From: Gracilaria domingensis
Lineage: Eukaryota > Rhodophyta > Florideophyceae > Gracilariales > Gracilariaceae
Reading direction: 5' to 3'
NCBI GenBank assembly: GCA_022539475.1
Contig: VCMS01000203.1
Coordinates: forward strand, 81,990 to 145,989
DNA length: 64,000 bases
Shown: in pieces, positions 1-18,735 of the stretch
How the letters are laid out: each line of letters opens with the position of its first letter
Position numbering within the stretch: the first letter of the stretch is position 1
The notes under the pieces: model-generated
What the model was told of the DNA's origin: nothing
The model's input: only the letters and a program-made list of their open reading frames with translations
Database searches by the model: none
Translations under genes and position numbers: made by a program

Positions 1-872
1 GAGAGACGAAAAGAAACTGGTTGCGTACTTGCAGTCGTTGTGAACGTCGGAAGAAATACAAAGGACGCACGTCAAAGAGTGGTTACCTTCAATCAAGACA
101 ATGTTAGTAGCAAGACGTAGAACAAGATGGAACATATCGTAAGCAGAACGTAGTTGAACAAATGGAACGAGTTGGAGGCTGAAAACGGAACCCGGTAACC
201 CAAAGCTTATTTTCTGCCGTTTACATGTCGCATAGCGCGAAAAACGTGGTGAGGATGGATTAGTTTAGAGCAAGATACATAGAAGAATATGGAAGAGAAC
301 CTACGAAAAGACTGCACGGAATACATCCGTGAGATACGGATGATGTCCGCTTTATGGAGGCGTCCGACGAGGGCGAAGAAAGAGAATGAGGTACGCTTCA
401 TGTCCGCTTAATGAAATCCATTAAGCAGAGATGAAGCGTACTTCATTCTCTTTCTCAGCACGCTGCTTCGTAGCGAGTGCGAGGGCGCAAAAAGTACGAC
501 GGAGCGGAGTAGAACGCGTGGATGTGAATGGCACGGATCACGACGGTAACAGAAGGTCGGACGTCGGACGGGCGGCGCGGCTGCGGAGGGAAGAGATTTA
601 TTTTCGTGGGCGAGATTGGACAGGTGTACAGCGTACAACGTTGCAAAACCACAGGTTTATAACCAGTGGTAGATAATACGAGAAGTACACCCTTGTGTTG
701 AGTTCGACGTGTACCTACGTTCCTTTTTGAACGAAAGCACGTGATTTAAACTCAAAATATATTCTCCTTTCTCAGCATTACGTCGATCTTGACTGTCGCT
801 CGACCTCGTTCTCCCTTCGGACGACCTTCCCTTGCAGTCTTTGTCGTCGTTTCTCGTTCATTTCTTCTTCCC
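1..872. other. left flank of transposon-like block, no gene seen
   Basis: I see no convincing gene here. The stretch holds one strong inverted repeat (376-457, listed separately). The short open frames on both strands around it share the same first residues only because of that palindrome. The segment just before 873 is the presumed 5' leader and promoter of the transposase gene. I could not identify a terminal inverted repeat or target-site duplication that would fix the element end. Confidence 0.5.
376..457. repeat. 38-bp imperfect inverted repeat (hairpin)
   Basis: The arm at 376-413 pairs with 419-457 around a loop of about five bases, with four or five mismatches in 38. The repeated core contains gaatgaggtacgcttcat on one side and its complement on the other. 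It may be a small foldback insertion or a structural signal near the edge of the block; no function is shown. Confidence 0.75.
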
Positions 873-2000
873 ATGGTCTACTACTGTACACATAAGAAGC
901 GTGGGTGCCCGTTCGTTACTCGCCGAGGAGTCTTATCTCTTCAACAGCATGTCAACCATTGCCCGTTTCGTCTGAAAGCAGCGCTGGAAGACGAAAATAG
1001 GCCGCCCATTCGGAGAAGCAAGCGTCTCAAGCTTTCCACGCCCGCGGCCGCATCTTCCGAAACCGTCACTGCTCCTTGTCGCCTTCTCGAGCCTCCGGTG
1101 TCCGAGGAAATCGTTGACCCCACTCCGTGTGCCCCTCCCATTCCGGACACTTCGCATTGTGTTTCTCCTTCCCCGAGTCCCGCGTCATTAGAGCGAGAAC
1201 ACGGAAGCAGTTCCCGCCCAGTGCCTTCTGAGGAGGCCCTCGGTGATTTGCATATGGATTATCTCACGGTTTGTCTGGCTTCAGTAGCTTCCAACCTTGG
1301 TCATCGTGAGGCAGACGAGCTAATTGGGCTACTTCGGGACCCGCGATTCTCGCAAAATCGATTCAAAGAGACCATAACAAGTTCCAAGCGCTGTACAGAA
1401 CTGAAGAACGCCATTTTCGAACGATACGCCTCAAAGGACGGTTTCAATCGAAGAACTGTCTCGCCAGAAGGATGTAAGTTCAGCGCCACCCTCTACACGA
1501 GAGACCTCGTTCAGACACTTGTGAAACAGCTCCAGTTGGCTAACAACGAAAACACATTCTTCCATCCTATACCTCAGACCCACTCCACGAAAATATCTCA
1601 CCCCATGTCCGGCTCTCTCGCAAGAGACGCCACCTCAAAACTGAAGGAAATGGTCATGGGCTCTTTGGATAGTAGAATAGTGTGGTACTCCCAAGAAATA
1701 AGTTACAGTGAATCTTTCGTAGGTCTTCTGCAGGTATACACCGATAAGTCTTCAACAACTCTAAAGCAAACATCGGTTACCGCCTATCCTCTTCACCTCA
1801 TATTTCTCAACTTCTCCGAAGAGCTACGCCGTAAGTGCATCCGTGATGACCTCACAGTAGTGGCATACTTCCCTACCACACTGATCGAGGTTTCCGCATC
1901 TGAAGCAGACGCAATGCCATTCGTGTCTAGCAAGTCTCTACGCGAGTCCAGGATGCAAATCCTTCAAGACTCTCTTGTCAAGTTCTGGAGTCCATTCTAA
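873..2000 (+). CDS. transposase, N-terminal part (zinc finger; CACTA/Plavaka-like)
   Basis: The first ATG in this frame is at 873; the frame is open upstream only through non-ATG codons. The product opens with a Cys-rich finger (CTHKKRGC, then HVNHC about 25 residues later), as at the N-terminus of several eukaryotic DNA-transposon transposases. A basic patch (RRSKRLK) and a Pro/Ser-rich linker follow. The frame ends at a stop at 2000, but the frame one base back (starting about 1975-1985) carries straight on into the downstream part, so this is the 5' portion of a gene broken by a frameshift. Family placement is inference from the downstream motifs. Confidence 0.6.
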   Translation: MVYYCTHKKRGCPFVTRRGVLSLQQHVNHCPFRLKAALEDENRPPIRRSKRLKLSTPAAASSETVTAPCRLLEPPVSEEIVDPTPCAPPIPDTSHCVSPSPSPASLEREHGSSSRPVPSEEALGDLHMDYLTVCLASVASNLGHREADELIGLLRDPRFSQNRFKETITSSKRCTELKNAIFERYASKDGFNRRTVSPEGCKFSATLYTRDLVQTLVKQLQLANNENTFFHPIPQTHSTKISHPMSGSLARDATSKLKEMVMGSLDSRIVWYSQEISYSESFVGLLQVYTDKSSTTLKQTSVTAYPLHLIFLNFSEELRRKCIRDDLTVVAYFPTTLIEVSASEADAMPFVSSKSLRESRMQILQDSLVKFWSPF

Positions 2001-4051
2001 ATCTCACGCAGAAAGGTTTTCAGTTCATCGGCGAAGACAAACTAAGTCGAGTGTGCCATCCTCTGCTTGCAAGTTATTGTGCGGATATTCCTGAGGCTAA
2101 GGGCATTCTGTCCATTCTTCATGGGACCAAAACGGAAAGCCCGTGTCATAGATGCAAAGCTGCTCGCTCATCTTTATGCAGTCCTATTCCCACCTCATTC
2201 AACGGACGTTCTCAAAAGCACACGAAAAGCATCCGAAAGACATACACAGCTATCTTGCAACATGCGCAAAAAGACGAAGCGGAAAGACGTCCACGTCGTG
2301 CGAGGGAGAGGAGATCTCAAGCGGATACTCTGATGCGTTCAAATTCCATATCTCTCATTCCTTCGTTCCTCGAAACTTCCGTAAGCCTTGGAATGATCGC
2401 GGGATTGTCTCCATACACTCTGTTTCCATTCGAACCATTACACAACTTGCATCCCGGCATCTCGAAGCTGATAAAAATGGCCACAATCGAGAGACTGCAG
2501 TCAGACACCCTGTGCACCACAACAGAAACATCTGCATCGCGTTCATTTCGAATGATACGCACCCAACTCCTCAACCATGCAAACGCAATTCTAGCTGCCA
2601 TAGAACGCGATTCTCCTGCCAAAGGTTTACATATCGATTTCTCCACGCAGGAGAAAGGCAAATCTTTGAATGGTATCTTCACGAAAGACGGTCTCTGTGG
2701 AATGCTGGAGGCCAAAAACTACAAAGCACTTGACATGGTCTTCCCCTTCATAGGAGCATTCTTTGACATATGCTGTGGAGAACAGGACGTTGCCCCAATC
2801 ACAACCGTTTTCTCTCAGTACTCGGACTTGCTTTCGACCTTATTCACATACAATCGTGACCCGTATTGGACTGAAAGCTCTCTCCTGTGTCTTAGTTCGG
2901 GGATTGAAGCCTTCAAGCGTTCCGCAACAAAGACTCTGGCGGATTTTCATCCCTCCAGACTGGGAACTCTGAAGTTTCATCTTCTCGATCATCTCGTGGA
3001 CGATATTCGCCGTCTGGAAAGTATCAAGTACTACGACGCAGGCATATACGAACATGCTCACCTGCTATTTATGAGACACTACAAAAAGACGTCCAGAAAA
3101 ACAGCAACGGCTGTGGAGGAGACTATTCGCTCCATTGAGCACGGACATGTTAGAAAGCAATGGAATGGCAATACTCCTTTCCAGCGTAATCCAGGTTTAC
3201 CAGGAACCTCCACACAGCTTCCTCGATTTGCAATGAGAGGGCGTTCTTTCACTTTACGAGCTCTTCAACTTTGTGTTTCAAGTATGTCCAGTTCAAAAAC
3301 ATGGACTGCTGTTAGAGAGATGTTCTCAAGTACGGACACAAGGTCGATTCTTGACCAAATTGGTGAACAGGCCCTTCCTCCTTTCCTCAATCTCATGAAA
3401 GAAACACTGGATGAGCACTCTATTACATACTTCCCAGAAAAGACAATGATAACTCTGGTGAATTCGGCCCTTGTGAAAGGCGGTTTCGTTCCGACTCTTG
3501 AACACTTCGATTCGTCTTCTAAGGCACTTAAGCTAGGACGACCCAAATACCCCATCATCCAACGAGTCTTCGCTTCTCCAGCATTTGGTCCCAATATAAA
3601 GCCAAAGTTTTCCACTGTATTGATAAGCGGAGAAGATTCAGAGACTTGGGTTGCCCAGGTAGTCGCTCTGATTCGAATATCTCTCCTTGATTCTGCACTT
3701 ACCGCACCAGAGGTGGCATTCGTCCGGTATTTCGAGGTTTTACCCCCCGCAACAAACATCGATTACATATTGAAATGCATATCTTTACGGTGGGCTACAA
3801 ACGATGAAAAGAACCACACTGTTCCGTTCCCTCGTCATTCCAAAGCGGAGACTATCGTAGAGTTAACTCCTTGGTACGGGATGGTTCCGGCTTCTGCACT
3901 ACAGGGAACTGTCCATGTTGTTCGATCAAACTACCCTGCTCCACCTTTTTGTCCTCCACTTCAATGTTTTCAACACCGATTCTACATCAATCGATTCTAT
4001 CATGATTCAGATGAAGGACCAACTGAGCACGTTGATCTTGTACAGTCTTAA
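1982..4051 (+). CDS. transposase, C-terminal part (RNase H-like, CACTA/Plavaka-like)
   Basis: This continues the preceding frame after a one-base shift and is open from before 1982 to the stop at 4051. Visible motifs are HPLLASYCADIPE followed by a Cys pair (PCHRC), then EPLHNLHPGISK, and later KFHLLDHLVDDI with a following YDAGIYEHAH. This order resembles catalytic-core landmarks of the CACTA-related Plavaka group in fungi and similar protist elements; I recognise the pattern from memory and did not align it. The usual start-codon argument fails (first codons GTG), which supports a broken single gene. Its 3' end faces the 3' end of the next gene, 157 bp away. Confidence 0.55.
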   Translation, partial: VLESILNLTQKGFQFIGEDKLSRVCHPLLASYCADIPEAKGILSILHGTKTESPCHRCKAARSSLCSPIPTSFNGRSQKHTKSIRKTYTAILQHAQKDEAERRPRRARERRSQADTLMRSNSISLIPSFLETSVSLGMIAGLSPYTLFPFEPLHNLHPGISKLIKMATIERLQSDTLCTTTETSASRSFRMIRTQLLNHANAILAAIERDSPAKGLHIDFSTQEKGKSLNGIFTKDGLCGMLEAKNYKALDMVFPFIGAFFDICCGEQDVAPITTVFSQYSDLLSTLFTYNRDPYWTESSLLCLSSGIEAFKRSATKTLADFHPSRLGTLKFHLLDHLVDDIRRLESIKYYDAGIYEHAHLLFMRHYKKTSRKTATAVEETIRSIEHGHVRKQWNGNTPFQRNPGLPGTSTQLPRFAMRGRSFTLRALQLCVSSMSSSKTWTAVREMFSSTDTRSILDQIGEQALPPFLNLMKETLDEHSITYFPEKTMITLVNSALVKGGFVPTLEHFDSSSKALKLGRPKYPIIQRVFASPAFGPNIKPKFSTVLISGEDSETWVAQVVALIRISLLDSALTAPEVAFVRYFEVLPPATNIDYILKCISLRWATNDEKNHTVPFPRHSKAETIVELTPWYGMVPASALQGTVHVVRSNYPAPPFCPPLQCFQHRFYINRFYHDSDEGPTEHVDLVQS

Positions 4052-4208
4052 ACATTAAGGGCTCCATCCTCTACATGTTCACCTTGTGGTGCCTTTTCTT
4101 GTGATCCTGTGCTACTTCTGAAATCGTTCATGTCCATTTCCTTGAACTCCATATCCCCTTCCTCGCATTCACCAACGAAACAATCGCTAATAGAACCCAA
4201 TCGTCGGC

Positions 4209-6443
4209 TCACACTGTCAATAAAAATTGTTCTTTCACAGTGAGGTAAAGTCTTCCGTTCGACGGCATTCGATATCCAAATGTAGCCTCTCTCATGTCAT
4301 TACCAAGAACCTTAGTCCAATCTTCCGTTGTCGTTCCAAACTTATGAAACTCGCTGGAATTGGTCCTCAAGACACGTTGCCTAACATCCCCCAGAACATT
4401 CTTTAAACACAGAGGTAGCAGTTGGGCAAACTTCTTTGTAAACAGTTTCTGTCTCTGGCCACCCCTTGACACATCCGTACTTAGAAGGGTCACAACCGTC
4501 AACACCCAAACGTCCAAACGTGCCAGCAACAGTATTGTGCCATCTAAAAAGGTGCCCGTATCCTTGTCTTCCACATCATACCCAATAAACTCCTTCAGTA
4601 CTTGTACCCCGGCACGGTTTCGGAAGAACAAGTCTTGATCTTCCGTCCGCATATCCTCGACATTGTCCGCATTGGAGTACTTTAGACGAACAAATGGGGC
4701 TTTCCTCCACCATGAAGTGTTCGGTACACCATTTTCGTCAAGACGCAGTATGTTCTTCCGCTCTTCCTTCAACTGCATTGTGAGTTCGTCAGCATTCTCT
4801 TCTACCAGCTTTGTTCTTCTCCAAATCAGATCGTACCCCAGGAGCAGAAATAGTTTATCCCTCGTATTTCTCTTCCGAACGCCCACGACGTCACTCATGG
4901 TCTGCCGCATTCTCTGCCTAAGGCACATATATGCACAAAGTTCTAGTATACACCTGTCGGTAAGAGATGATTTTCTAATACCTTCCCAGCTCAACTCCTT
5001 CAACTCACTTTCAACCATTTTCTTCAGCAAAGCATCTGGCCCCCCCTCTACCGACGGTGTGAACATGCCAAAACTGCTCAAGAGCTCCACGGGGTTTTTA
5101 GGAACCATGTATGAACCACCTTCCTCCGACTCAATAAGCCCTTCCCCACTCTCAGTTGCGTCTTCCACCTTCTCGGCACGGTTACCCCAATTTCGGGTGA
5201 GCGACTCACCTTCGAGCCATAGCTCACTTGTTTCTCTCCTTACCCACGTCAGCATGTTCTGATACACTGCTCGAGCAACCCCTCGAAACTCGTCGCACAC
5301 CTCAATTTTATGCTTCTTTCGACCAGTCTGCCCAGGTTCACCAGCACGTGTACTCCTATCTCCCTCCTGTTTCAGTGCCCCTCTTAGCCCTTCAATGACT
5401 AGATCCTTCTCTTCAAGCCTCTTTTTCAGAGCCGTACTCTGCTCTTGGGCGACCTTCACTAGAATTCCCCGAACCATCAAGTCCTCTTGTAGCGTCTTAA
5501 CCTTTCCTTTCAAGCAATTCAGTTCATTTAAAAGATCACGTCTGTTCATAGAGGTTGAATTCACACCAGTGTGGATATCTTCCGGTATTTCTCTAGCCTC
5601 TCCGGCGACAGGCCCCGGTAATGCCGCAGGATTCGGTGTTATTTCGTTATCGGAACTATCCTCATGTGCCATACCCTTAGACACGAGAGGCTGCAGGCGT
5701 TCTGTTTCCACCCTTGCAACGGCTCCGAGCTCCACCTCCCGTGTCTGTTCTCCTCCATGGCATCGTATATCAGATGAATTGGGCCACGTACGAGCTGCAG
5801 CGGCCCCCGTTTTAGAAAGAGGGGAAGGTCGAGGAGTAACTCGTCTATCAGTTGTCTCTCGATTTCTTATTGTCTTTCTCCCTTGTTCGGACCCATTGCG
5901 AGGCATGATACGATTCATAGCGGCCCCAGTTCTAGAAGACAGGGAGGGACGTGACGATCTTAATATACTAGGGCTCTCACGACTTCTCTTCATTGTCCCT
6001 TGTTGTCCAGATCCACTGGGCGGCGTAACCCGCGCCCCAGTAGCTCCGGTCTTCGATATCGGCCGGGGACATGAAGGTTTTGGTGTCATACGAACCTCTT
6101 CATTTCCAGTTGTCATGCCCTCTTGTCCTGACCCGCTGGGCCGAGTTACCTCATCTTCTTGAGGAGCAGAGACAGATGCACGATTTGCATTACCGGCAGT
6201 TGACGGCACGACATCGTTCGCTGATCCACGAATTCTTGACGCAATTCCGGAAGACGCTCCGCTGCGAGATGGGCGAGAGAGTACTGTAGAAGGACGCCCA
6301 CTGACTCTCTCCTTCGTCGAGGACGACTTCCGTTTAGGACGTGCGGTGCTTGTAGCCTGATTCTTATCATCTGATGCTCTTCTCTTCTTCTGTTCTTTCT
6401 TGTTCCGCTGCGTACTATTTCGCTTTCTCGGCGTTATACCCAT
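4209..6443 (-). CDS. nuclear coiled-coil protein of the transposon-like block, unknown function
   Basis: The frame is open from 6635, but the credible start is the ATG at 6443, which begins MGITPRKRNSTQRNKKEQKK, a strongly basic nuclear-localisation-like N-terminus. Residues roughly 20-230 are Ser/Arg/Gly-rich with imperfect repeats of a unit containing RPS.LS(R/K)TGAA. Residues about 290-360 form a Leu-heptad coiled coil. The C-terminal 350 residues look globular and mixed charge, and I do not recognise them. It is the only gene of the block I found uninterrupted. It lies downstream of the methyltransferase gene in the same direction, and a 14-G run (6481-6494) sits just upstream of the start. 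A structural or DNA-binding accessory protein of the element is possible but unproven. Confidence 0.6.
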   Translation of the reverse strand: MGITPRKRNSTQRNKKEQKKRRASDDKNQATSTARPKRKSSSTKERVSGRPSTVLSRPSRSGASSGIASRIRGSANDVVPSTAGNANRASVSAPQEDEVTRPSGSGQEGMTTGNEEVRMTPKPSCPRPISKTGATGARVTPPSGSGQQGTMKRSRESPSILRSSRPSLSSRTGAAMNRIMPRNGSEQGRKTIRNRETTDRRVTPRPSPLSKTGAAAARTWPNSSDIRCHGGEQTREVELGAVARVETERLQPLVSKGMAHEDSSDNEITPNPAALPGPVAGEAREIPEDIHTGVNSTSMNRRDLLNELNCLKGKVKTLQEDLMVRGILVKVAQEQSTALKKRLEEKDLVIEGLRGALKQEGDRSTRAGEPGQTGRKKHKIEVCDEFRGVARAVYQNMLTWVRRETSELWLEGESLTRNWGNRAEKVEDATESGEGLIESEEGGSYMVPKNPVELLSSFGMFTPSVEGGPDALLKKMVESELKELSWEGIRKSSLTDRCILELCAYMCLRQRMRQTMSDVVGVRKRNTRDKLFLLLGYDLIWRRTKLVEENADELTMQLKEERKNILRLDENGVPNTSWWRKAPFVRLKYSNADNVEDMRTEDQDLFFRNRAGVQVLKEFIGYDVEDKDTGTFLDGTILLLARLDVWVLTVVTLLSTDVSRGGQRQKLFTKKFAQLLPLCLKNVLGDVRQRVLRTNSSEFHKFGTTTEDWTKVLGNDMREATFGYRMPSNGRLYLTVKEQFLLTV

Positions 6444-6480
6444 ATTGTGGAGATAAATGGGGTAATGAAACGAAATTGTT

Positions 6481-6494
6481 GGGGGGGGGGGGGG
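6481..6494 (+). repeat. poly-G run
   Basis: Fourteen consecutive G on the + strand, about 40 bp upstream of the leftward gene starting at 6443. It may matter for that promoter or may be a site of slippage and assembly uncertainty. Confidence 0.9.
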
Positions 6495-6674
6495 TGCATG
6501 GTTCAGATATTCCGGGAGACTCCGCAGTTCCTGCTTTTTAGGAATTTGAGGTGCCCAATGGGTCGCAAATATCGCCGTTACAGATGAAGAGCTCCAGTGT
6601 ACATGTACAATGCGTATTGCAGGCAGCTGCAACATTCACAAGCATATTTACTTCCTATTTGGTACTGAACTCAT

Positions 6675-8785
6675 CTATTGCTCCAATGTCAGAGCCCAGT
6701 CCCAGGGGTACTGCTCTCCGTAGTTGAAATACAACTCTTCGCCCCTCTCAATCTCTCTTACTGCTCTACAACGAAGTAGAGCATAGTTAGAAAGGTCGGA
6801 CTTAAACTGTATCACGGACTTCGCTTCCACCATCTGCACATTTGCACTTCGAGTCCTGTTTGACCGGGGCTACGATAAATCAGGATCCCCGGCATGATAT
6901 CCGGCGTCGTTAATGTAGCCCCGATACGAAAAGGCGCCGGGACAATGTACACTTCGCTCTCCTTTCTATTCTGAGCCTGTCCCGGTCTGTTCTTCAGGTG
7001 CAGAAACTCCGTACCAGTCACAGTGACCATCATAGAAAACAACTTGTACCGCACTGGAGTTGCTCCGAGACAGCCACTTCCATACGTTAAGTGTCTTTCC
7101 TTCCGGTTCGTCAGATCCGTGTATACCAAAGTTCCATAAAAATGACAGATAGTCTCCCCAGCCAATATGTTATGTTCCGTGAACACCCCCATACCAGCAC
7201 GGGGATGTCGAATCTTAGAAGATGCTACATGTAAGCCATAGCGATTGGCTTCAACAGTCAACAGCATATGCATATCCATTAGATTCAGAGCTCCTCGGTA
7301 CTTCTCCTCCCAAAGATGTACAGTATGCTGTCCACATTTGTCGACAAAGTCCCAGTCCTTCCAGTATCTTCCTAGGAACTGAGTAATATGTGCAGGCATC
7401 ACTTGGTACTCGGGGTATTCAAATGGAGCCTCCCATTCAAGCCGATCTCGGTCTTGATGTGGAACCCGTTCATAAGTCGTTGAAGCAGCATCCACGACCT
7501 CCTGTTCAACCACGATGTCATTCTTTCCCCCGCGAAGAACTTCGGACATAAGAGTCGTTATATGGTGCTTCGCATGGCTGAAACATGGCCTATTCTTCTC
7601 GCACCCCAAGAACTTCATATGCTTTGTCAGCGATAGGCACGCCATACCCGTAGAAAAAGTTCCCGCGAACATGTCCATGACAAGATCACCCGGTCTTGTG
7701 AAGCGACATATCAACTCTTTCATCAACTCCCTTGACTTCTGCTCCGGTCTTATGTACTGCCTACTTGGTACTGAACTACCTGGATCATTTACCTTCCATG
7801 TCAACCACTTCACCGCTCTCGGTTTTGGCACCCGGTCAATTACATTCCTGTTAGCCGGGAAAGTAGAAGGAATGAATTTGTTCTCCTCAAATGGAGTAAG
7901 ACTGGCTTCCTCCGATGGTCGCAATCCACGCTTCACCCCATGAACGGCGTACTCCGTTACGGGCTGTATCCCAAACTTCCGTGGATTCCCTCCAACATTA
8001 CTTCGATCCCGGATGAACACCAGTGGATTCCCATCCACTTTAAACGAAGGCATGAGTTCTGGCTTACCTTCGCTTCCAGCTTCATCTTTCGTACTCGCCG
8101 TTTCCGAAAGTATCCTGTGCCAAACATGAAACTGTGCCATGGCATAGAATATAATGAAGTGCCCACCTGACCGAAGCGCGGAACTTATTAAGTCAGCCGT
8201 ACTGATCATGTCATCCTCACTGAAGACATCGTGAGCACTATTCCGTTTGCTTCTCTTCCTTCGAGTGTTAAAGGGAGGGTCTGTTAGGACAAGCTGTGCC
8301 TCACCCCATAAAATCTCACTCTGATTCACAAACGTTTCGTGTGTGTGCCTCAGGTCCTTCATGTCACAGTTGTACGCTACAAAGTATGACTTTCTCATCC
8401 CCTTCCACACCTTGTCCATATTCATTCGAAGGAGACTGGATATCCCCTTCATGGGCGGCTCAATACCAGTCTTTTGGATGTTGTAACCGGCAACCCGAGA
8501 TTCATGCTCCGCAAGATTCACTGGTTTCTCGAAGACGTCGCTATCGGAGCTCACGAGGTCCATATACTCTCGACGAGGTGGGAGTGGGGCAGACTTGGTC
8601 GAAGAAGGTTCGGCATTACCGGAAGTTTTAGGGGTTTTCGTCAGTTCAATATCAGGTTTGGCGTGAATGCCGACATGGAACCCTGCTGCATGACGCATAT
8701 CCTGTATCGGTTTCCATAGCAACTCCGAAAACTTCTGAAATCGAGCAGGCAACTCACCGGAGTCAGAACCAGATACGATATCCAT
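6675..8785 (-). CDS. beta-class DNA amino-methyltransferase fused to a SET domain (frameshifted near 6865)
   Basis: Methyltransferase motif IV (LTDPPFN, residues 167-173 counted from 8785) precedes the AdoMet motif (TRPGDLVMDMFAGTFSTG, residues 363-380). That is the IV-then-I order of beta-class N6-adenine/N4-cytosine DNA methylases common in bacteria and phages. The second motif has F where Gly is usual. From residue about 523 a SET domain begins (RAGMGVFTEHNILAGETICH, then FYGTLVY). The reading frame stops at 6812, but after a frame change near 6850-6880 the next frame gives ANVQMVEAKS and then EIERGEELYFNYGEQY, the expected SET C-terminus, ending at TAG 6675-6677. Upstream, only one TAG separates it from the 8807-9769 frame. 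Predicted substrates: DNA adenine/cytosine and histone lysine. Activity of this copy is doubtful. Confidence 0.75.
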
Positions 8786-8806
8786 CCGTATCTCCGAAAA
8801 CTCTAT

Positions 8807-9769
8807 CTAGTTCCTCATCTGATCAGCCCGTAAGCTATAGAGGCTATCGTGAGTGCATATGGTTTCGAGGTCTGTCAAAAATTCCTTAGCCAGTATTCGG
8901 AGGTTTGTATCGAATTCATCACTCAAGGTCTCCACCGATCCACTAGTACTGCTCTGTGGCACATCCTGTGTGTTGAATTGAGTACTCTGGCTCGGCAGGG
9001 CATAACCAGACTCCCGTGTCTCTAGCGCTGTATACTTCAACGTCTGCATATTCATGTAAATGTATGGTTTCACCATGTTCTGAACGTTCGTGTATCCAAG
9101 ATGAGCCGCAAAACAACTCCATGCCCATACGACCTCACTGATAGCGAATCCCAGTCGATCACAGTTGTCTTTGGAGAACGGCGTAAAAGTGGGTATGTAC
9201 ACAGATGGTGCATGGTTCACTTTTCGTTTCTTTTTCGGTTGTTTCTTCTTCATCATTCTGATGTTGTCGTTCTCTCCCATTATGTGGCCGAGGTATGATA
9301 AGTATATAACGACCTCAAATGGGTTCAGAGATGTTGGTGGGATGAACACTGTTGTCTTCAGAACCTGCTTTCTCCTGGTCATGAAATAACCAACCAGGCA
9401 TCGCACCGGTAGGTATATACCCATATCCATAGAGAGAAGCAAAGAATCGCTGAGTATCTGGTCCTCATTCCCGTCCTTCTTGTCAAGAAGCTTCGTTACA
9501 AGATATCGTTGTTCTACAGGTTTGTTATTCACAACACTCTTTCGCAGCTGTTGCAGTGTCAAGTTCTGCAGGTTCTTGGAGTTAGTGGCCTCCTCAAACA
9601 TCTTCCTTGCCTCCGGAATATTCTTATAGTTCTCGGCGCAGAACTCTATTAGCCCTCTAAACACCACGTCCCGTGGCCGATCAAGGCCTCCATCGCTGTT
9701 TGCCAAAGCATCGCGAAGAACCAAGAAAAGTCTGACATATGCATGGAACGCGGGAGCCGGAGCACTCAT
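8807..9769 (-). CDS. N-terminal region of the methyltransferase-SET gene, with an SV40-type NLS
   Basis: ATG at 9769 begins MSAPAPAFHAYVRLFLVLRD. The frame runs 320 codons to TAG at 8807-8809 and then stays open, in the same frame, through the methyltransferase. The first methionine after the stop is only eight codons on. I therefore read this as the N-terminal part of one long protein cut by a nonsense codon. It contains KKKQPKKKRKV (about residues 176-186), matching the classical monopartite nuclear localisation signal. The rest is probably helical and unrecognised. The start lies 57 bp outside the left promoter arm at 9827-9915. The alternative is two separate neighbouring genes with a 21-bp gap. 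Confidence 0.6.
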   Translation of the reverse strand: MSAPAPAFHAYVRLFLVLRDALANSDGGLDRPRDVVFRGLIEFCAENYKNIPEARKMFEEATNSKNLQNLTLQQLRKSVVNNKPVEQRYLVTKLLDKKDGNEDQILSDSLLLSMDMGIYLPVRCLVGYFMTRRKQVLKTTVFIPPTSLNPFEVVIYLSYLGHIMGENDNIRMMKKKQPKKKRKVNHAPSVYIPTFTPFSKDNCDRLGFAISEVVWAWSCFAAHLGYTNVQNMVKPYIYMNMQTLKYTALETRESGYALPSQSTQFNTQDVPQSSTSGSVETLSDEFDTNLRILAKEFLTDLETICTHDSLYSLRADQMRN

Positions 9770-9826
9770 GTCGATAGGAGTATCTCCTCTCCATTATCGT
9801 TGGAATCCATCGCTTCAGCGCAAACA

Positions 9827-9915
9827 ACGGAGGCGAGCCTTTAAATGGCGACTTAGGCTGGGCATCCCCGCTTTCGGCAGCTCCTCCCAGCGCACTACCG
9901 GTCTCGTCCGTGTCC
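9827..9915 (-). repeat. left arm of 89-bp inverted repeat (promoter module)
   Basis: It matches the reverse complement of 10628-10716 over 89 bases without gaps, with seven mismatches by my count (about 92%). The shared core includes aggcgagcctttaaatggcg and ctgggcatccccgctttcgg. The TTTAAA sits about 70 bp upstream of the ATG at 9769. Confidence 0.85.
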
Positions 9916-10095
9916 GTGTCGGCTCCCTTCTGAGGTCGGTGTCCGTGCCGCTTCGAGCGGGTGCCATAGCGTCGCGTGTCGGCCACGTCGCGATTCGGAG
10001 CTATTGCAAAGGTCGCGTATTGTGCTAATAGTCGCGGACCAAGTGGGTGTGAAGCGCTAGTTTTCTCTAGTTCGATATATGTGAACGGCGTGTGC

Positions 10096-10420
10096 AGCGA
10101 AATCACTGCCGGAAGTGCCGGGGGGTGTGTTTTGGGAGGTCTCCGAAAGGCGCCAGAATGTGGCCAAAAGGTGCCCGCGGGCGGGGGGGTCGGTCGTGTT
10201 AGGGTAGGTACCCTAACACGACCGGACCCCCCCGGCCGCGGGCACGTTTTGGGCGATTTTTTGAAAAATGTGCGATTTTATGCCCGCGGGCCGGGGGGTC
10301 CGGTCGTGTTAGGGTACCTACCCTAACACGACCGACCTTCCCGCCCGCGGGCACGTTCTGGCCACATTCCGGCGCCTTTCCGGGACCTCCCAAAACACGC
10401 CGCCCCGCAGTGATTTCGCT
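10096..10420. repeat. 325-bp nested palindrome able to fold as a T-shaped (three-stem) structure
   Basis: Outer arms (about 10096-10170 and 10355-10420) are complementary, both ending in agcgaaatcactgc when read outside-in. Inside lie two further palindromes: one at about 10171-10244 centred on gttagggtaggtaccctaac, and one at about 10281-10354 centred on gttagggtacctaccctaac. A 36-base AT-richer spacer (10245-10280) lies between them. The G/C-rich stems would make very stable hairpins. It may be a foldback transposon inserted in the promoter, a fused pair of element ends or a regulatory/replicative structure. Confidence 0.8.
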
Positions 10421-10627
10421 ACAACCGGCCGCCGGTACGTTGGCGCCGCTGTCCACGTGTATTGGCGGGAGTAGGCTGTACATGAAAGTGAATGAGTGTA
10501 CTCTTGACTACTATGCAAAGCATTTGAAGAGCACGATTAGAGAGCGCGACCATTGCTCGCGTGAGTCATCATTGCGCGAACTCTACGACTCTAAGGCGTA
10601 CAATCAGCGTGCGAGCGGCCACGGACA

Positions 10628-10716
10628 GGACACGGAGGAGACTGGAAGTGCGCTGGAAGGAGCTTCCGAAAGCGGGGATGCCCAGCGTAAATCGCCATTT
10701 AAAGGCTCGCCTCCGT
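10628..10716 (+). repeat. right arm of 89-bp inverted repeat (promoter module)
   Basis: This is the inverted partner of 9827-9915. Its TTTAAA lies about 77 bp upstream of the ATG at 10780, mirroring the left side. Confidence 0.85.
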
Positions 10717-10779
10717 TCTTGTATCGTCCAGAGCGAGCGTATTGTTGATATACACCTTTCACTGAAATAGCTGTTCAAC

Positions 10780-11664
10780 ATGAAGCCAACTCCTGTTCGA
10801 AGGCGTACGCAAAGCGTGACTCCTCGCACTCGGCGGAGCACTCGATCATTGCAAGGTGGAATGCGGGTTTCTCTGCAGATGGATATTGAGAATAAAGGAA
10901 AGGTGATAGTCGGGGAAGCGTTGTTGCATGGAATTGGAAGTGTTCTACGCCGCGAGTTGAACGGGAAGCAATTGGACCCAGGTCTTGTGGTGGTTTATAA
11001 TATTCTCATCAGTCGAAGCGGTCAGACGTTCTACCCTTACCGGGCGGAGGGCCTGAATCTTCCACAATACATCCAGGATCTCCGGACGGCCGCTTCTTGG
11101 GATGAGAAAATGATAGAACCGGTAGCAGCCAGCATTCCGGCGTCCAAGCGACGAACGGTGAGCGCTATGAGTAAGTTGATGACGCCGACAAGCCGCACGG
11201 AGCCAATTCGAAGTTCATCAACACCGAGAGGTAGCGCATCAGTAGCACCTCCGCGGGCAGGTCCGTCGTTTGTTACGAAGCGGTCTATAGAGACGAGATC
11301 ATCCCCAACTACGAAGCGGACAGGTCAAACAAAGTTTACCTCCGCTACGAAGCCCACTGCGTCGAAAAGGGCATCTCCTGCGATGAATCAGACCGTCGAC
11401 CTAAGGGGAACTTCTGCGTCGAAACAGACGGTTCAGCACGGGACGGCTGTGCAAGAAGAGGAAGATGAGATCATAAAAGGTTCCCTTCCAGACGCGGATG
11501 CGCAATCCGCACAAGGAGCTGGTTCATCTGTACCCCAAACTGCACAAGAAACTGCGGAGCAGCAGAACGATGACGTTGTGCCTCTGTACGCAAGAATAGC
11601 ACGTTCAAGTGTTTCTGGCGAGCGGTCTGGAACACAAGGGACACCTACTCGGAGCAAGACGTAA
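10780..11664 (+). CDS. N-terminal section of the rightward ParB/2OG-oxygenase gene (basic, low complexity)
   Basis: ATG at 10780 starts MKPTPVRRRTQSVTPRTRRS, a very basic nuclear-type N-terminus. A compact stretch of about 90 residues follows (GKVIVGEALLHGIGSVLRRE), then about 160 residues of Ser/Thr/Lys-rich repeats with several TKR/TKP units, and an acidic tail. The frame ends at TAA 11662-11664 but is otherwise open onward in the same frame into the ParB-like section. I see no recognisable enzyme domain here. It is probably the disordered N-terminal arm of a single large protein. Confidence 0.55.
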   Translation: MKPTPVRRRTQSVTPRTRRSTRSLQGGMRVSLQMDIENKGKVIVGEALLHGIGSVLRRELNGKQLDPGLVVVYNILISRSGQTFYPYRAEGLNLPQYIQDLRTAASWDEKMIEPVAASIPASKRRTVSAMSKLMTPTSRTEPIRSSSTPRGSASVAPPRAGPSFVTKRSIETRSSPTTKRTGQTKFTSATKPTASKRASPAMNQTVDLRGTSASKQTVQHGTAVQEEEDEIIKGSLPDADAQSAQGAGSSVPQTAQETAEQQNDDVVPLYARIARSSVSGERSGTQGTPTRSKT

Positions 11665-12474
11665 AGACGAATTCGTCAGAAGGTACCAAAGGTGAACCTC
11701 AATCACTACCGGATGGTTGTTGTTTTTGTTGACATCAATCTGGTGCACACTCCGCCCAATTTACTCCGTGGAGTAAGTAAAAGCCACGTTGAAGCCCTTG
11801 TGAAGAGTATGGAGGAGCGGGGGATATTGCAGTCGATGGGTTCTCCAGTGGTGGCCTTACAAGATGCTACTACGGGAGATAGCGATACTGACAAGGGACG
11901 CCTAACGAAGAAGTGCTTCATTGTAGATGGTTTGCATCGTCTGAAAGCTATACAATATTTGGCAGCGACTGGTGCACCGAAGTGGAAGCGATTAGCCAAG
12001 TTTTGGAGTTGCAATCTGCTGATACGAAGAGATGGGAGGCCCATTCGGATGAAGGAATTGTTATGTGTTGCTTCGTACCTCAATGAGTCGACGAGTACCA
12101 TGCGAAGGATGATGTTTGCAGACAAGATACATTCTATAGTTAGTGTGGTCGCCATTCTAATTGAAGATGTTGAGTGGGTGACGCCGGCAGACGTGGATCC
12201 TGCAGAAGTGACAGAAGTGTTGAAGGAGAGCCAACTGATTGGGACTGTGCAAGAGCGTCAGTATCTGAGATATGCCAATGTCGCCCTGCAACTCATGTCT
12301 CGTGAGGGAATGCTGGCCCATTTCGAGAATATATGTGAGAGTATGAGTGACATAGGTCTCACACATCTGTCCCATACTCCGCTATATGTTTTGGATGCCG
12401 AGGAGTTTTCCTTCATTCTTGATTGTTTTCAGATGTTTCTATTGAAGGGCAAGTCGACGAAGACAAAGCAATGA
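11665..12474 (+). CDS. ParB/Srx-like domain section of the rightward gene
   Basis: The frame is open directly after the TAA at 11662-11664. The first ATG is at 11713. The sequence VFVDINLVHTPPNLLRGVSK, then ALVKSMEERGILQ, then FIVDGLHRLKAIQYL matches the ParB N-terminal (ParB/sulfiredoxin-like) pattern: a beta strand with I...P, a helix with ...L..SI...G..., and the (D)G.HR...A nucleotide-binding box. Phage and bacterial ParB-like domains of this kind are often found with DNA methylases. The rest (about 150 residues) is helical and unassigned. The section ends at TGA 12472-12474, after which the same frame stays open. Confidence 0.6.
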   Translation, partial: RRIRQKVPKVNLNHYRMVVVFVDINLVHTPPNLLRGVSKSHVEALVKSMEERGILQSMGSPVVALQDATTGDSDTDKGRLTKKCFIVDGLHRLKAIQYLAATGAPKWKRLAKFWSCNLLIRRDGRPIRMKELLCVASYLNESTSTMRRMMFADKIHSIVSVVAILIEDVEWVTPADVDPAEVTEVLKESQLIGTVQERQYLRYANVALQLMSREGMLAHFENICESMSDIGLTHLSHTPLYVLDAEEFSFILDCFQMFLLKGKSTKTKQ

Positions 12475-13464
12475 AAAAGCTTTGAGGAGGTTCGAGGTTT
12501 CTTTTATGATAGAGCAGCGTCTTTGTTCCACGCGGCTCGAGCAGTGAGGAATGAACTAAACGAGGAAGAGTCCATGGAAGTGTTCCTGAAACGCGAAGTC
12601 AGTCTTTCTGCTCTATCGAATGAAGATGACGTTGAAGACCCAGACAAAAACGCAGCTGTGTATCAGTTCCTTTTGGGACAAGTTGTGAACTTCAACACAT
12701 TGCCGCGTGTTCGGAGCAGGACGAACTCAATTAGAACTGCCACGACTTCCGTTCAGAATCGATTGCGGACGATGCTCAAAGTAATTCCGCCCCCCGCACC
12801 AGTGAAGCAGTCCGTGACGAAGAGGAGAACTCCCGCTGCTGCTGCTGCAACATCTGCCAGTGAAGAAGGGGAGCCGCGAAGAAGTGCACGAGAACGGGCG
12901 CAGGTGAGTTATAGGGAAATTGAGCACGGCCGAAATCGAGGTGCCATAGAAGTTCTGGATAGCTCTGAAGAAGAACAGCGGGCTCCGCCGAGGAAGAAAC
13001 GGAGAAAGACTTTCACACAACAGATGAGATCTACTCTGAACAGCATGACACCGGATGATCTGATGTCTCAACTAAATGAACATGTGCTGAGAGGAAGGTC
13101 GATGAAGGTTCAGTTCGTGGCATTGGGAGAGGGAGCGAATGCAGAGAACGCAGGCAGTTCTGCATTTGTGGATGACGATGAGCTTCTTTCTGTGACAGTT
13201 CCACGGGTTGTCACCGTCGAGAAAGATGCTGCGCCAGACGATCAGCAAGAGACAGGTGGGGGGTCATTTGATGACGAGTTACCTACAGCTCTTCCGGAAT
13301 CTGAGGAGCACGGACTTGTTCGAGGTGACCCATATGATGGCCCACTGAACCCATCATGGTGCGGGTATGTCAGGCTGAGACCGCAGGAATGGCAAGGGAA
13401 GAACGTAATTGAGCACAAGGACCCCTGGCTCAGAGTCATTCACTTGCCGAAGGGACATAGGTAG
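12475..13464 (+). CDS. linker section of the rightward gene (basic/acidic, probably disordered)
   Basis: The frame is open from the codon after TGA 12472-12474 through to TAG 13462-13464; the first ATG is only at 12572. It starts with a plausible helical stretch (FHAARAVRNELNEEESMEVF). A low-complexity middle has a basic patch (PPRKKRRKTFTQQMRS) that would serve as a nuclear localisation signal, and an acidic tail follows. It ends with a more conserved-looking Trp/Pro-rich stretch (NPSWCGYVRLRPQEW). No known domain. The lack of any other stop in the gaps on either side argues that it is not a free-standing gene. Confidence 0.5.
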   Translation, partial: KSFEEVRGFFYDRAASLFHAARAVRNELNEEESMEVFLKREVSLSALSNEDDVEDPDKNAAVYQFLLGQVVNFNTLPRVRSRTNSIRTATTSVQNRLRTMLKVIPPPAPVKQSVTKRRTPAAAAATSASEEGEPRRSARERAQVSYREIEHGRNRGAIEVLDSSEEEQRAPPRKKRRKTFTQQMRSTLNSMTPDDLMSQLNEHVLRGRSMKVQFVALGEGANAENAGSSAFVDDDELLSVTVPRVVTVEKDAAPDDQQETGGGSFDDELPTALPESEEHGLVRGDPYDGPLNPSWCGYVRLRPQEWQGKNVIEHKDPWLRVIHLPKGHR

Positions 13465-14697
13465 GAGCTGCTAAATGTCTCGAATCTCAGAGATGTACAC
13501 CATCTTGTCTTTTGGCACGCTGCAAGGGCTGAACATCGCCTACGGGCGGAGATATTTGGTATGCAGTATCCTCGTACTCGGCCGACAGGTATGGACGATG
13601 AAGAGTTGCTGTGGGTTGCGGCGAAGGAGCATGACGAATTTGGGCAAATGTGCTTCGCCCGAATGCAAGCTGAGCTAAAGCAGAATGGATATTGCGTGCT
13701 TGATGGCTTTGCGACGGATAATGGTGTCTCTAAATGGGAGGAGTTGGAAAAAGTTCGGGAGTTCGGAGATGTGTCGGGGAAGTTGGTGGACTTCTTCGAG
13801 AATGAGTATGGAGCGATGCCGGATATACGGAAAGGGGAGGAACAGAAGTCGTTTGTTCAAATAATCAACTATGATCAAGGATGGAAGGACGGTAGCGATG
13901 GACTATTTGAGAGGAGAGTGATGTCGACACGTTGGGGTACGGTGGAGAAGCCGAAGGATAATGAGGAGCTCAGGTGGGTTGTAAGGTCGCGTGCTTTACT
14001 TGATGTTCGAATGGGTACAATTGCTGCGGCTTTGGTACTATGGGACAATGAAAGGGAAGCTGTGAAGATGTACACTCCGAAAACTGGTGGTCGATTTCTG
14101 GGGACGACGAGAAAGTGCAAGCGCCAGACGCTGCACACCGACTTCAGTGGTCTGGTTACGAAGGAAACAATGAATACTGGTAACCCCGGATACTTTGTAA
14201 TGGCCTCTGGTAAAGAGGGCTTTCCTCTCTGGGTGAGCGCTGGAAGCCATCAACTGGTGCGGATGAACAACCAACAGTTGCGAGTGATGTCGGAGGTGTA
14301 TCCAGCGAAGAAGATAATCATCCCACCGTACTCTGTATTCGTGGGCCGTGGTGATGTGACACATGCTGGAGCAAGTGGGATGGACAAGGTGAATAGGCCC
14401 GAGTCTATGGATTTGCCGGTTAGATACCACATGTACATGGTACCAGAAGGTTACACACTACCTGATGCTGTTCATCGGGTGCGGGATTTCCGACCTATGT
14501 TTGTCAATGGTGACGAGGAGGAGGAGGCGGAGGATGAACTGTTGTCCGATAAGGAGGGTAGGGCGGTTGACATGGAAGAAGACCAAGTGGTCGTGGAGAT
14601 TGTTGTGGAAGCGGAGGCCGGTAGAACTGAAGTGCTCGAGAGTAGTAGTGATGACGACTTGCCAATAATGAGGCTGCGAGCGCCTCGAAGTGGATGA
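13465..14697 (+). CDS. 2-oxoglutarate/Fe(II) oxygenase-like domain, C-terminal section of the rightward gene
   Basis: The frame is open from the codon after TAG 13462-13464; the first ATG is at 13561. Counting from 13561, metal-ligand-like residues are H192 and D194 (LHTDFSG, codons at 14134 and 14140) and H268 (GRGDVTHAG, codon at 14362), followed by R288 (PVRYHM). This is the HxD...H...R pattern of the double-stranded beta-helix dioxygenases, with an LWVSAGSH stretch as in phytanoyl-CoA-dioxygenase-like members. By context a nucleic-acid or chromatin substrate is possible (AlkB, TET/JBP and JmjC share the fold), but the exact family is not settled by reading. An acidic tail ends in DDDLPIMRLRAPRSG. 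Confidence 0.65.
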   Translation, partial: ELLNVSNLRDVHHLVFWHAARAEHRLRAEIFGMQYPRTRPTGMDDEELLWVAAKEHDEFGQMCFARMQAELKQNGYCVLDGFATDNGVSKWEELEKVREFGDVSGKLVDFFENEYGAMPDIRKGEEQKSFVQIINYDQGWKDGSDGLFERRVMSTRWGTVEKPKDNEELRWVVRSRALLDVRMGTIAAALVLWDNEREAVKMYTPKTGGRFLGTTRKCKRQTLHTDFSGLVTKETMNTGNPGYFVMASGKEGFPLWVSAGSHQLVRMNNQQLRVMSEVYPAKKIIIPPYSVFVGRGDVTHAGASGMDKVNRPESMDLPVRYHMYMVPEGYTLPDAVHRVRDFRPMFVNGDEEEEAEDELLSDKEGRAVDMEEDQVVVEIVVEAEAGRTEVLESSSDDDLPIMRLRAPRSG

Positions 14698-14978
14698 GAA
14701 TGAGATGATTAGTAAATTATGAGTGTCTTGCGAGTATTAAGAGTAGTATACTATTGCAAGGCTATACATATGAACATAGAAAAGGTGCAGCAGGCTGGTA
14801 ATTGAACAAATGTCAAACGTCATTGGTCCAGTTGCGTCTAATTGCAACATGCCACATGCTCGGCATCGTTAACATCATTGGTGGCACCATTCAATTCGCA
14901 ATTGAACATGTAGCGTCCTAACACTTCTGAAACTGCACTTAAGGTTGCTTTTAAGAGAAGTATGAAACTGAGAAGTCT
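14698..14978. other. intergenic, possible right flank of the block
   Basis: AT-richer spacer between the oxygenase-bearing gene and the first HAD gene. I see no gene, and no terminal repeat matching 1-872 could be found by eye. Confidence 0.5.
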
Positions 14979-15872
14979 ATGCAGTTCCTGTCTATGCGGT
15001 ACTTGTGGCAGTATGGTGACTGTATCAGGAAAATGGCAGAGGAACAGAGAGACTTGGCGGAAATTTCACCCAATACCTTGTCTAAGTTCATATATGCCAA
15101 TGGTTACGGTATATTAAGTTCCGTTGATGGAACGTTGAGAAGAGAAGGAGAGTCAATTCCAGAAGAAGTTGTGAAGTGTATGAAGTTCATTGACGAACGT
15201 GTTGGTTTCCGACTTGTCACAGGGGGTGATGTGGGCGACGTGGAGGGGAAAATGGAAGGACTCGGAGACTATGAGTTTGGTTTCTCGGCAAATCATGGAG
15301 CTTTCCTCCGTTTCTCTGACGAGAGGGAAATTAAGGCTGCATTCAATGATCACACCCTTAACCACACTGTTGATGGACTTCTGTTCTTGGCAAGGGATTT
15401 GAATAGGAGGCATGGTATTGTGAATGATGATGAGAAGGGTTTCGTGGAGACCAGAAGTGATAGTGGCCTTCCCAATTTCGTGTACAACAAACTGTGGCAG
15501 TGGAGAGAAGAAGTGGATTCTGCTATTGGGGACCTGTTGCAGAAGATGGATGCATTTGTTATCTATCCCGGCCATAAAAGTTGCGAAATTGTGGACAATC
15601 GATACACAAAAGGAAGCGGAAGAGCAAATCTTGTGGATAATGAACCGAGACTTATTGATACGCATGACGTCGTGACGTTCGGAAGTGCTTTGAGCGACGG
15701 GCCTTTGCATGAGGTAGGCGTGTACGGCGTTCACGTCAAAGAAGATTGTATCCCGGGTGGAGTACACAACCTGTTCGAAAGCGTGGAGGATGTACATTCG
15801 ACAATTATGTTGGTGGCTCTGTTGTACGGCTACGAGGAAAAGCAGCACGATAAAAACCACCATGAATCATAA
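14979..15872 (+). CDS. HAD-superfamily phosphatase-like protein, probably inactive paralogue
   Basis: The 297-residue product aligns along its length with the neighbouring convergent gene (15925-16875), a Cof/sugar-phosphatase-type HAD protein. The key motifs are degraded. The nucleophile motif DxDGT reads SVDGT (residues 48-52, first Asp replaced by Ser). Motif II is VTGGD instead of ATGRD. The metal-binding motif IV region reads GSALSDGPL instead of GNASNDGPL. A phosphoaspartate intermediate could therefore not form in the usual way. Possible starts are 14979 or the methionine at residue 19. A regulatory pseudoenzyme or an early pseudogene are both possible; the long intact frame favours some function. 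Confidence 0.7.
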   Translation: MQFLSMRYLWQYGDCIRKMAEEQRDLAEISPNTLSKFIYANGYGILSSVDGTLRREGESIPEEVVKCMKFIDERVGFRLVTGGDVGDVEGKMEGLGDYEFGFSANHGAFLRFSDEREIKAAFNDHTLNHTVDGLLFLARDLNRRHGIVNDDEKGFVETRSDSGLPNFVYNKLWQWREEVDSAIGDLLQKMDAFVIYPGHKSCEIVDNRYTKGSGRANLVDNEPRLIDTHDVVTFGSALSDGPLHEVGVYGVHVKEDCIPGGVHNLFESVEDVHSTIMLVALLYGYEEKQHDKNHHES

Positions 15873-15924
15873 AAGGGTATTGAGATGTATACGACACTTT
15901 TATTACTGAGATCTCATATCCTAG

Positions 15925-16875
15925 CTAAGTATTACAGGCATCGTAGCACTTGAAACAAATTCCAAGAGCATTTCTAAACCATTGACACTTGCATTTTCTG
16001 TACCCGTACAGTTCTGCCACCCTTCTGATGGTCTCATGCACGTCCTCCACCCCATCCACAAGATATGTTACCGCTGCTGGATGGTCTTCTTCCTTCACAT
16101 GAACTGCCAGGGTTGCCATTTCATATAGAGGGCCATCATTGGAAGCATTCCCGAAAGCAACGATTAAATGTGTGTCGAACTGGGGGTCGTTTTCAACCAA
16201 GGCTAGCGCCCCACTATTTTTCGTGAAACGAATGTCCCCTATGTCACAGTTTTCATCTTGAGGGTACGCAACCAGGTTCGGAAAGGATGTCAACACTTTT
16301 GAAATACAGGAGTTAACTTCTGTTTTCCACTTCGACAGTCCATTGTACGTGAAGCTAGGGAGTCCACTGTCTTTTCTAGTGCTCACAACTGCTTGTTGAC
16401 GCTCTTCGTGAAGTCCGTGCGATTCATTTAAGGAGAGTGCAAGTCTCTCAAGTTCGGCTGCACATCTTTCGTAGCCTTCCCTGTCAAGGTCCTGATCAAT
16501 TTCGGTACCATTGGATAATCTCACCGGTGCGCCTTGGTTTCCAGAGATGCCAAAAGTGTAGCCACCCAGGTGCTCCATGAAACTCTCGGCATCCTCTATA
16601 TCTCGCCCAGTAGCAATTCCGAAACCAACGCGTGCGTTGATGTACTTCATGCATTTGGCTGTTTCGGCAGGAATGTTCTCCCCAGCTCTTTTCAGAGTAC
16701 CGTCAATATCACTAATCACGGCGTAGTCATTTTCGAATATTTCGCTAGCCAGCTGCTGAGGAGTTACCTCTTGGGCTCTAACTTCTGAGTTATACATGTT
16801 TTGAAAGCTTTCGAAAGGGTTCGTTTTGCAAATGGGTGTGGGTATACGAATGAGAAGGATGTGATTGATGTTCAC
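15925..16875 (-). CDS. HAD-superfamily hydrolase (Cof / sugar-phosphatase-like)
   Basis: Motif I is ISDIDGTL (Asp56 nucleophile and Asp58 acid, counting from the ATG at 16875). Motif II is IATGRDI, a Lys candidate lies in FTKNSG, and motif IV is VAFGNASNDGPLYEMA, supplying the Mg2+-binding acid residues. Order and spacing fit the class IIB cap HADs that dephosphorylate small sugar phosphates or nucleotides. The start may instead be Met27 (16797), which removes a short hydrophobic leader. The C-terminus has a Cys-rich tail (CKCQW and CFKCYDAC). It lies tail-to-tail with its paralogue, 52 bp apart, so the pair arose by inverted duplication. Confidence 0.8.
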   Translation of the reverse strand: MNINHILLIRIPTPICKTNPFESFQNMYNSEVRAQEVTPQQLASEIFENDYAVISDIDGTLKRAGENIPAETAKCMKYINARVGFGIATGRDIEDAESFMEHLGGYTFGISGNQGAPVRLSNGTEIDQDLDREGYERCAAELERLALSLNESHGLHEERQQAVVSTRKDSGLPSFTYNGLSKWKTEVNSCISKVLTSFPNLVAYPQDENCDIGDIRFTKNSGALALVENDPQFDTHLIVAFGNASNDGPLYEMATLAVHVKEEDHPAAVTYLVDGVEDVHETIRRVAELYGYRKCKCQWFRNALGICFKCYDACNT

Positions 16876-18306: not shown

Positions 18307-18735
18307 GTCGGACTAAGAGTTCATTGCAAGTGTTCGATTGTTTTTGTGTGACGATAAAAATGGAAGATGGGGCGGAGAACTGCTGGGGTAAAGAGTGATA
18401 CTTAAGTACAAACGGTCGGGAAGCGCAGAACGGGAACATGGTTCACTTTGTGAAAGTGAGCGAAATGTATGATATGTGATTGTACTGAATGAATGATAGG
18501 GCTTGTATGAGACGACAAGCCACAAAGTGTGATGATGTTTTATGAAAAGTAGGTGGAAGAGTAGAAAGTGTACAATGAATGAAACTGATTTCGAACCTGA
18601 GTTGTAAAGTAGTTGTAAAGTACGAGTTACGGGGAGCTTGAATACAGGATGAAAGGAGCCATTTTGGCTTCATAAATGACGTGAACGGGTTCTATAGCTT
18701 CACTCAGATTGCCGTAATCTTCTTTTTTATTGAGG
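18307..18735. other. divergent intergenic region
   Basis: Spacer between the leftward Rossmann gene and the rightward epimerase gene, presumably holding both promoters. No other gene is supported. Confidence 0.5.

Follow-up and report, generated by a model that had tools for sequence, protein, structure and literature searches.

A many-copy Plavaka transposon carrying a DNA methyltransferase-SET fusion gene in the red alga Gracilaria domingensis

We propose, with moderate confidence drawn from sequence comparison, that a stretch of 64,000 nucleotides of the Gracilaria domingensis genome (hereafter the window; G000:C203:81990-145989, inside a 77.9-Mb assembly of 680 contigs) contains a decayed copy of a cargo-bearing Plavaka transposon of about 23 kb, present in many copies, whose methyltransferase-SET protein marks the element's own chromatin. 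That the host is a red alga is borne out by contig C680 (179,836 bases), on which 10 of the 12 phycobilisome-family match rows lie, with phycoerythrin, phycocyanin and allophycocyanin genes among them. Its phycoerythrin alpha chain comes closest to PDB 1eyx and its phycocyanin alpha chain to 5y6p and 2bv8, which are almost level; 1eyx and 2bv8 are from Gracilaria chilensis. In the window, as in the intact copies C34 and C296, the genes follow each other in the order transposase (+), 808-codon ORF (-), methyltransferase-SET (-), inverted repeat, ParB-like/oxygenase-like gene (+), first HAD gene (+), second HAD gene (-), 415-codon ORF (-), 3-epimerase (+) and coiled-coil ORF. Their positions are collected in Table 1. 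The window copy has broken genes for the transposase, methyltransferase-SET and the ParB-like/oxygenase protein, and an open one for the 3-epimerase.

Table 1. Features of the transposon copy, with positions in the window
Feature	Position	Strand	Remarks
Transposon copy	about -1337 to 21529 (within the window 1..21529)	.	22.9 kb; G000:C203:80652-103518; termini common to other copies, flanks differ
Plavaka transposase gene	750..4051	+	frameshifted here: two overlapping ORFs
808-codon ORF	4209..6635	-	basic, coiled-coil look by eye; no Pfam or NCBIfam match
DNA amino-methyltransferase fused to SET	6675..9793	-	pseudogene in the window copy; intact copy L005
Inverted repeat	10119..10407	.	10119-10244 against 10281-10407, 91% over 127 bases; L001 self-match against the window
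ParB-like/oxygenase-like gene, 1308 codons	10771..14697	+	VDGLHRL at residue 385, HTD/H/R; three stops here
Candidate Fe(II)/2OG residues	14134..14424	+	HxD 14134, H 14362, R 14422; positions derived from the residue numbering, motif only
HAD-like phosphatase gene 1	14955..15872	+	Pfam Hydrolase_3 23.5 bits, cut-off 20.9, on L027
HAD-IIB phosphatase gene 2	15925..16995	-	Hydrolase_3 50.6 bits; TIGR01484 44.1 bits, cut-off 41.8; on L027
ORF that by eye begins with GxGxxG as Rossmann dehydrogenases do	17422..18669	-	no Pfam or NCBIfam match
Ribulose-phosphate 3-epimerase gene	18718..19497	+	open here; TIGR01163 230.4 bits, cut-off 212.6
Coiled-coil-like ORF	20156..21062	+	broken here, 342 codons in L027; no profile match above cut-off
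Right terminal inverted repeat	21513..21529	+	13 of 17 bases match the left end

Comparison of the copies revealed 17-bp imperfect inverted repeats at the ends of the element. The left end reads CGTCTGTCTCTTGCAGA and the reverse complement of the right end CGTCTGTGTTCTGCAAA; the sequence outside the ends differs between copies. Such sharp common ends with differing flanks led us to reject ordinary host genes or a segmental duplication as an explanation. At its left terminus the window copy has GATCTGT against CGTCTGT in the others (one or two changes), and the contig reads N at about window -1228 to 0, inside the left part of this copy. Both ends were located for seven copies (C203, which is the window copy, C34, C71, C69, C157, C91 and C114), with a spacing of 21.9-25.8 kb by lengths worked out by hand.

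The ends read CGTCTGT..ACAGACG. As a target-site duplication the outer CG was ruled out. At the right flank of C71, four of five fetched sites are empty and read TTAGA/TCGG without CG (the fifth is another occupied site); where copies are nested in other copies, at the window-equivalent positions w20705 and w5357, the interrupted sequence likewise lacks CG. The outer CG is therefore part of the element. For Plavaka transposons a target-site duplication of 2-3 bp is expected; no common bases of this kind were found beside the ends in the six end pairs other than that of the window, and at least three pairs are unlike one simple insertion: the left and right flanks of C69, C114 and C71 do not fit together in this way, owing to recombination or to assembly error.

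The genome was searched with pieces of the element, the best 40 of the first-look matches being scored out of 281 for the methyltransferase, 307 for the oxygenase, 660 for the transposase, 623 for the left end and 648 for the right end; for the HAD piece, the best 40 of 399 yielded 70 match rows. There are thus at least about 40 copies, probably hundreds. Among the matches listed, those to the methyltransferase, oxygenase, transposase and HAD pieces mostly share 95-98% identity with the window. One contig, C160 (G000:C160:4585-14119), has stretches that agree with the window copy at 99.9-100% identity over transposase and methyltransferase and is a duplicated or allelic contig.

A first-pass annotation of this DNA had supposed, as an inference, that the genes of the region belong to one eukaryotic mobile element and should be sought elsewhere in the genome together with the element's ends. 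Many copies with common 17-bp inverted ends were indeed found, and the 22.6-kb copy C34, read from end to end, carries the gene set. The genes also stand together in C296, the left end of which lies off the contig, so that with C34 two further copies unite them. Among the best 54 and 61 places listed for methyltransferase and oxygenase, 13 pairs are separated by 3.9-6.5 kb. The block outlined in that annotation lies inside the element but makes up only about 60% of its 22.9 kb, the rest of which holds further cargo.

The transposase relic noticed earlier is present, broken in the window copy, and its family is Plavaka. Other copies have at least 1050 amino acids open in one frame, and the intact homologue L020 matches the Pfam profile PF18759 with E=1e-18 (68.1 bits, cut-off 26.3). 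According to the available text of PMC12730594, the Plavaka lineage has been moved out of KDZ, its transposases bear the motifs C(2)C and H(3-4)H, and its termini are TGT..ACA (PlavakaA) or CATCA..TGATG (PlavakaB). The algal transposase has CHRC at 466 and HLLDH at 744 as candidates for the two motifs, which should stand between the catalytic D and E. The termini of the element match neither of the two groups as given there. By its transposase, as judged from sequence, the element is of the Plavaka lineage, in neither described terminal group.

In the intact copy L005 a single frame of 989 codons holds both the methyltransferase and the SET domain. The fusion of a beta-class methyltransferase with SET, which the first-pass annotation had placed at 6675-8785, is thus confirmed with both parts above their Pfam cut-offs, but the gene extends to 9793. 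N6_N4_Mtase is matched with E=1e-14 (55.5 bits, cut-off 26.7) and SET with E=1.8e-7 (31.9 bits, cut-off 22.4) over the full profile, 1-105 of 105. In the window gene a stop is present and the end of SET is missing; of 47 match rows, 10 have an uninterrupted frame of 989 residues, the query included. Among sequences of the PDB, the protein matches DpnA (E=1.2e-7), CcrM (E=1.2e-6) and KMT2A (E=0.06), the last providing the best chains for SET. In PADLOC the methyltransferase resembles type II methyltransferases, down to E=1.9e-11. The protein contains DPPF at 455, RPEQKS at 632, MDMFAGT at 656 and NYGEQY at 974; the catalytic DPPF precedes the AdoMet motif MDMFAGT, which is the beta order. Since SPPY is found in most bacterial N4C enzymes and DPPY in N6A enzymes, as the available text of PMC8885841 has it, the DPPF motif makes N6-methyladenine the better guess for the base mark. 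No reader domain was found in the protein by the Pfam profile scan. Strong basic runs are visible by eye in this protein and in the ParB-like/oxygenase protein.

The methyltransferase is phage-like. It matches phrog_67 of PHROGs with E=2.5e-23, and a tblastn search with the methyltransferase region found 106 phage records, identities being 24-29% among the 15 matches listed. Together with the large size and the many genes, the phrog_67 match could be taken for a sign of an island derived from a virus and not of a transposon. We regard such an origin as highly improbable, given the transposase and the inverted ends. Besides, no virus structural gene was seen among ten proteins scanned in Pfam, and two scans against viral contigs gave 3 pattern matches each, none of which was confirmed.

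On the other side of the inverted repeat lies the divergent ParB-like/oxygenase gene; further short repeats accompany the inverted repeat between the two genes, and their number varies among copies. The four ORFs of window 10771-14697 share one frame, split by TAA 11662, TGA 12472 and TAG 13462, and of 37 match rows two, C296 (itself the query) and C81, have all 1308 codons open. The two regions, ParB-like and oxygenase-like, therefore belong to a single gene. Many of the best DNA matches are frameshifted near window 12735-12801, and most copies seen are thus broken in this gene. A programmed frameshift was considered, the seven best matches (L010-L016) being broken or divided into two ORFs, and rejected on account of the fully open C296 and C81.

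The ParB/Srx-like and oxygenase regions described by the first-pass annotation are present, in one protein, and the HxD/H/R set was found, but ParB profiles match weakly and the oxygenase is seen as a motif only. The best profile matches of the ParB-like region are phrog_3264 (E=0.0085) and Pfam GmrSD_N (E=0.11, below cut-off), and its AlphaFold model, made without an alignment, is useless (pLDDT 33). The oxygenase-like motif consists of HTD at residues 1122-1124, H1198 (76 residues on) and R1218 (a further 20 on), and is weak when taken alone. The oxygenase-like region has no match in Pfam, NCBIfam or PHROGs, TET/JBP included at Pfam E values up to 10. Against PDB sequences both regions gave unrelated weak matches only, with no oxygenase among them, and tblastn found neither region in phages. 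This could be a DNA-binding protein that oxidises a protein or a base.

The remaining cargo is heterogeneous. Window 17422..18669 consists of two ORFs in one frame, which are one 415-codon ORF in L027 and C34. Across the genome the 3-epimerase has 147 match rows, a large share of which cover residues 154-259 only, and C34, C71 and C359 lack 459 bases of the gene with identical breakpoints. A 3-epimerase 57% identical to that of the element, with an open frame of 265 codons, occurs on contig C17 (G000:C17:505012-505731); to judge by sequence it may be the host's own gene and the source of the element gene. The metabolic genes resemble passengers acquired by capture. Outside the element, the window contains an ORF resembling a PIF/Harbinger-type transposase (43485-44588) and minus-strand ORFs resembling a decayed retrotransposon polymerase (23907-24737), both recognised by eye.

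To separate working genes from passengers, we compared 9-18 copies per gene, chosen as best DNA matches. Each change was counted once, as a singleton or as shared by at least two copies, and nonsynonymous to synonymous changes were related to a transition-weighted expectation; the tree was ignored and the p values are nominal per gene. With near-duplicates removed, the shared changes of the transposase (10 copies) comprise 25 synonymous and 14 nonsynonymous ones (ratio 0.21, p=2e-6; singletons 1.07). Methyltransferase-SET, with 9 copies, has 33 shared changes of each kind, a ratio of 0.36 (p=3e-5), and its singletons give 0.59 (p=9e-4). Both parts of the latter gene contribute: shared changes give 0.36 for the methyltransferase (p=3e-4) and 0.36 for SET (p=0.04). 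The ParB-like/oxygenase gene, also with near-duplicates removed, shows no significant deviation (shared 0.83, singletons 1.26), nor do the 808-codon ORF, both HAD genes and the 415-codon ORF with near-duplicates kept (0.80-1.62). Three control readings, in a wrong frame or antisense, gave ratios of 1.19-2.56, those of the shared changes being 1.55-2.56. Singletons of the 3-epimerase, near-duplicates kept, reach 0.55 at a nominal p=0.038, and the border between core and cargo is therefore blurred. A cruder count gave 0.52 for methyltransferase-SET, 0.76 for the transposase, 0.64 for the 3-epimerase and 2.04 for the coiled-coil ORF.

These values suggest clear purifying selection, among the copies compared, on the transposase and methyltransferase-SET only. 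The message of the test is that methyltransferase-SET, unlike most of the other genes carried, appears to behave like the transposase, as a working part. A large part of the cargo may thus be passive, as no clear selection is seen on the ParB-like/oxygenase gene, the 808-codon ORF, the HAD genes and the 415-codon ORF. One could extend passivity to the whole cargo and assume that genes were picked up at random and amplified, methyltransferase-SET having no role for the element. Plainly metabolic genes are carried (3-epimerase, HADs), most of the 3-epimerase is lost in many copies and most cargo looks neutral, all of which would fit. Such capture is nevertheless unlikely to account for methyltransferase-SET, which is constrained like the transposase in both its halves and is still open over 989 residues in the ten match rows mentioned above.

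The C5-cytosine methylase profile PF00145 has no match in the assembly, and 10 of 14 control genomes were positive. Among copies, C-to-T changes amount to 7.9 per thousand CpG, 6.8 CHG and 9.6 CHH (20,657 sites, mean depth 8.6), and the ratio of observed to expected CpG is 0.91 within the element, against 1.04 elsewhere in the window. The lack of an excess of CpG transitions and the CpG value of the element argue against 5mC on element copies. C-to-G changes, which are transversions, are 6.1 per thousand CpG, 5.3 CHG and 2.7 CHH, with no matching rise of C-to-T. Absence of 5mC is countered by PMC8566409, the available text of which cites about 8% methylation in Gracilariopsis chorda.

An oxygenase that erases 5mC in the manner of TET/JBP would have precedent in the Plavaka elements with TET/JBP genes reported in the available text of PMC12730594, and the HxD/H/R set is in place. 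We consider it very improbable here and rejected it: the region matches no such family in Pfam, NCBIfam or PHROGs, no C5 methylase was detected in the assembly and CpG sites show no excess of C-to-T. For two of these reasons, the missing family match of the oxygenase and the failure to detect a 5mC writer in the assembly, one half of the earlier suggestion that the element would oxidise a base or a protein, namely that on a base, found no support.

In the reading we prefer, methyltransferase-SET would be part of the element's working kit. From its families, the protein is expected to transfer methyl groups to amino groups of DNA and to a protein lysine. The methyltransferase would put an amino-methyl group, by the better guess N6-methyladenine, on the DNA of the element, and SET would methylate histones or another chromatin protein nearby. 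The marks would act on the element's own chromatin and favour its expression, in a host that would have to silence repeats without C5 methylation. For comparison, the available text of PMC8566409 places H3K27me3 on repeats of Cyanidioschyzon. A more elaborate scheme, which we put forward only tentatively, has two layers of marking, with methyltransferase-SET writing DNA and chromatin marks and the DNA-binding oxygenase editing or reading them, in replacement of the 5mC layer that the host appears to lack.

The marks might also limit the element, methyltransferase-SET repressing the copies that encode it, whether to hold their number down or to protect the host. In the available text of PMC8885841, the bdelloid N4CMT, an amino-methyltransferase with a chromodomain, is linked to silent chromatin, and the SET domain matches its best PDB chains, those of KMT2A, too weakly (E=0.06) to fix its class. 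We hold repression to be rather improbable, a brake bringing no obvious gain to the element and the Pfam scan having revealed no reader in the protein.

Several known systems share single traits with this element. The giant Plavaka repeats of Amoebidium are likewise multi-gene, many-copy elements with a Plavaka transposase; the accessible part of PMC11244446 describes them as intron-poor gene clusters of up to 50 kb in many copies, with recombinase genes that match dinoflagellates or red algae. It names tyrosine recombinases and 5mC-methylated copies, whereas the Gracilaria element has methyltransferase-SET, the ParB-like/oxygenase gene and metabolic genes in a host with no C5 methylase detected. 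With the fungal TET/JBP-bearing Plavaka and KDZ transposons, as far as the text of PMC12730594 is available, it has in common that a DNA transposon, of the Plavaka lineage, carries an epigenetic enzyme, but TET/JBP is not demonstrated in the algal element and its termini differ from those of both Plavaka groups. The same text reports a SET gene inside the HarbingerS and MuDR transposons of Phytophthora; these have other transposases, and no fusion with a DNA methyltransferase is mentioned in that part of the source. The bdelloid rotifer N4CMT, too, joins a bacterial-type beta amino-methyltransferase to a eukaryotic chromatin domain. By the available text of PMC8885841, however, it is a host gene with SPPY and a chromodomain, a reader, while the algal protein lies in a transposon and has DPPF and SET, a writer. 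A literature search, with subscription papers mostly outside its scope, found no transposon-borne DNA methyltransferase-SET fusion, no red-algal Plavaka and no such gene set.

An active methyltransferase would mean that DNA marking of the bacterial type reached a seaweed through a selfish element, in which it is joined to a histone-type methylase within a single protein. Native long reads would then be predicted to show 6mA or 4mC over element copies, and the system would offer a direct test of transposon escape from silencing where C5 methylation seems absent. With this element the range of giant Plavaka transposons rich in genes reaches the red algae, and here an epigenetic gene among them is under selection.
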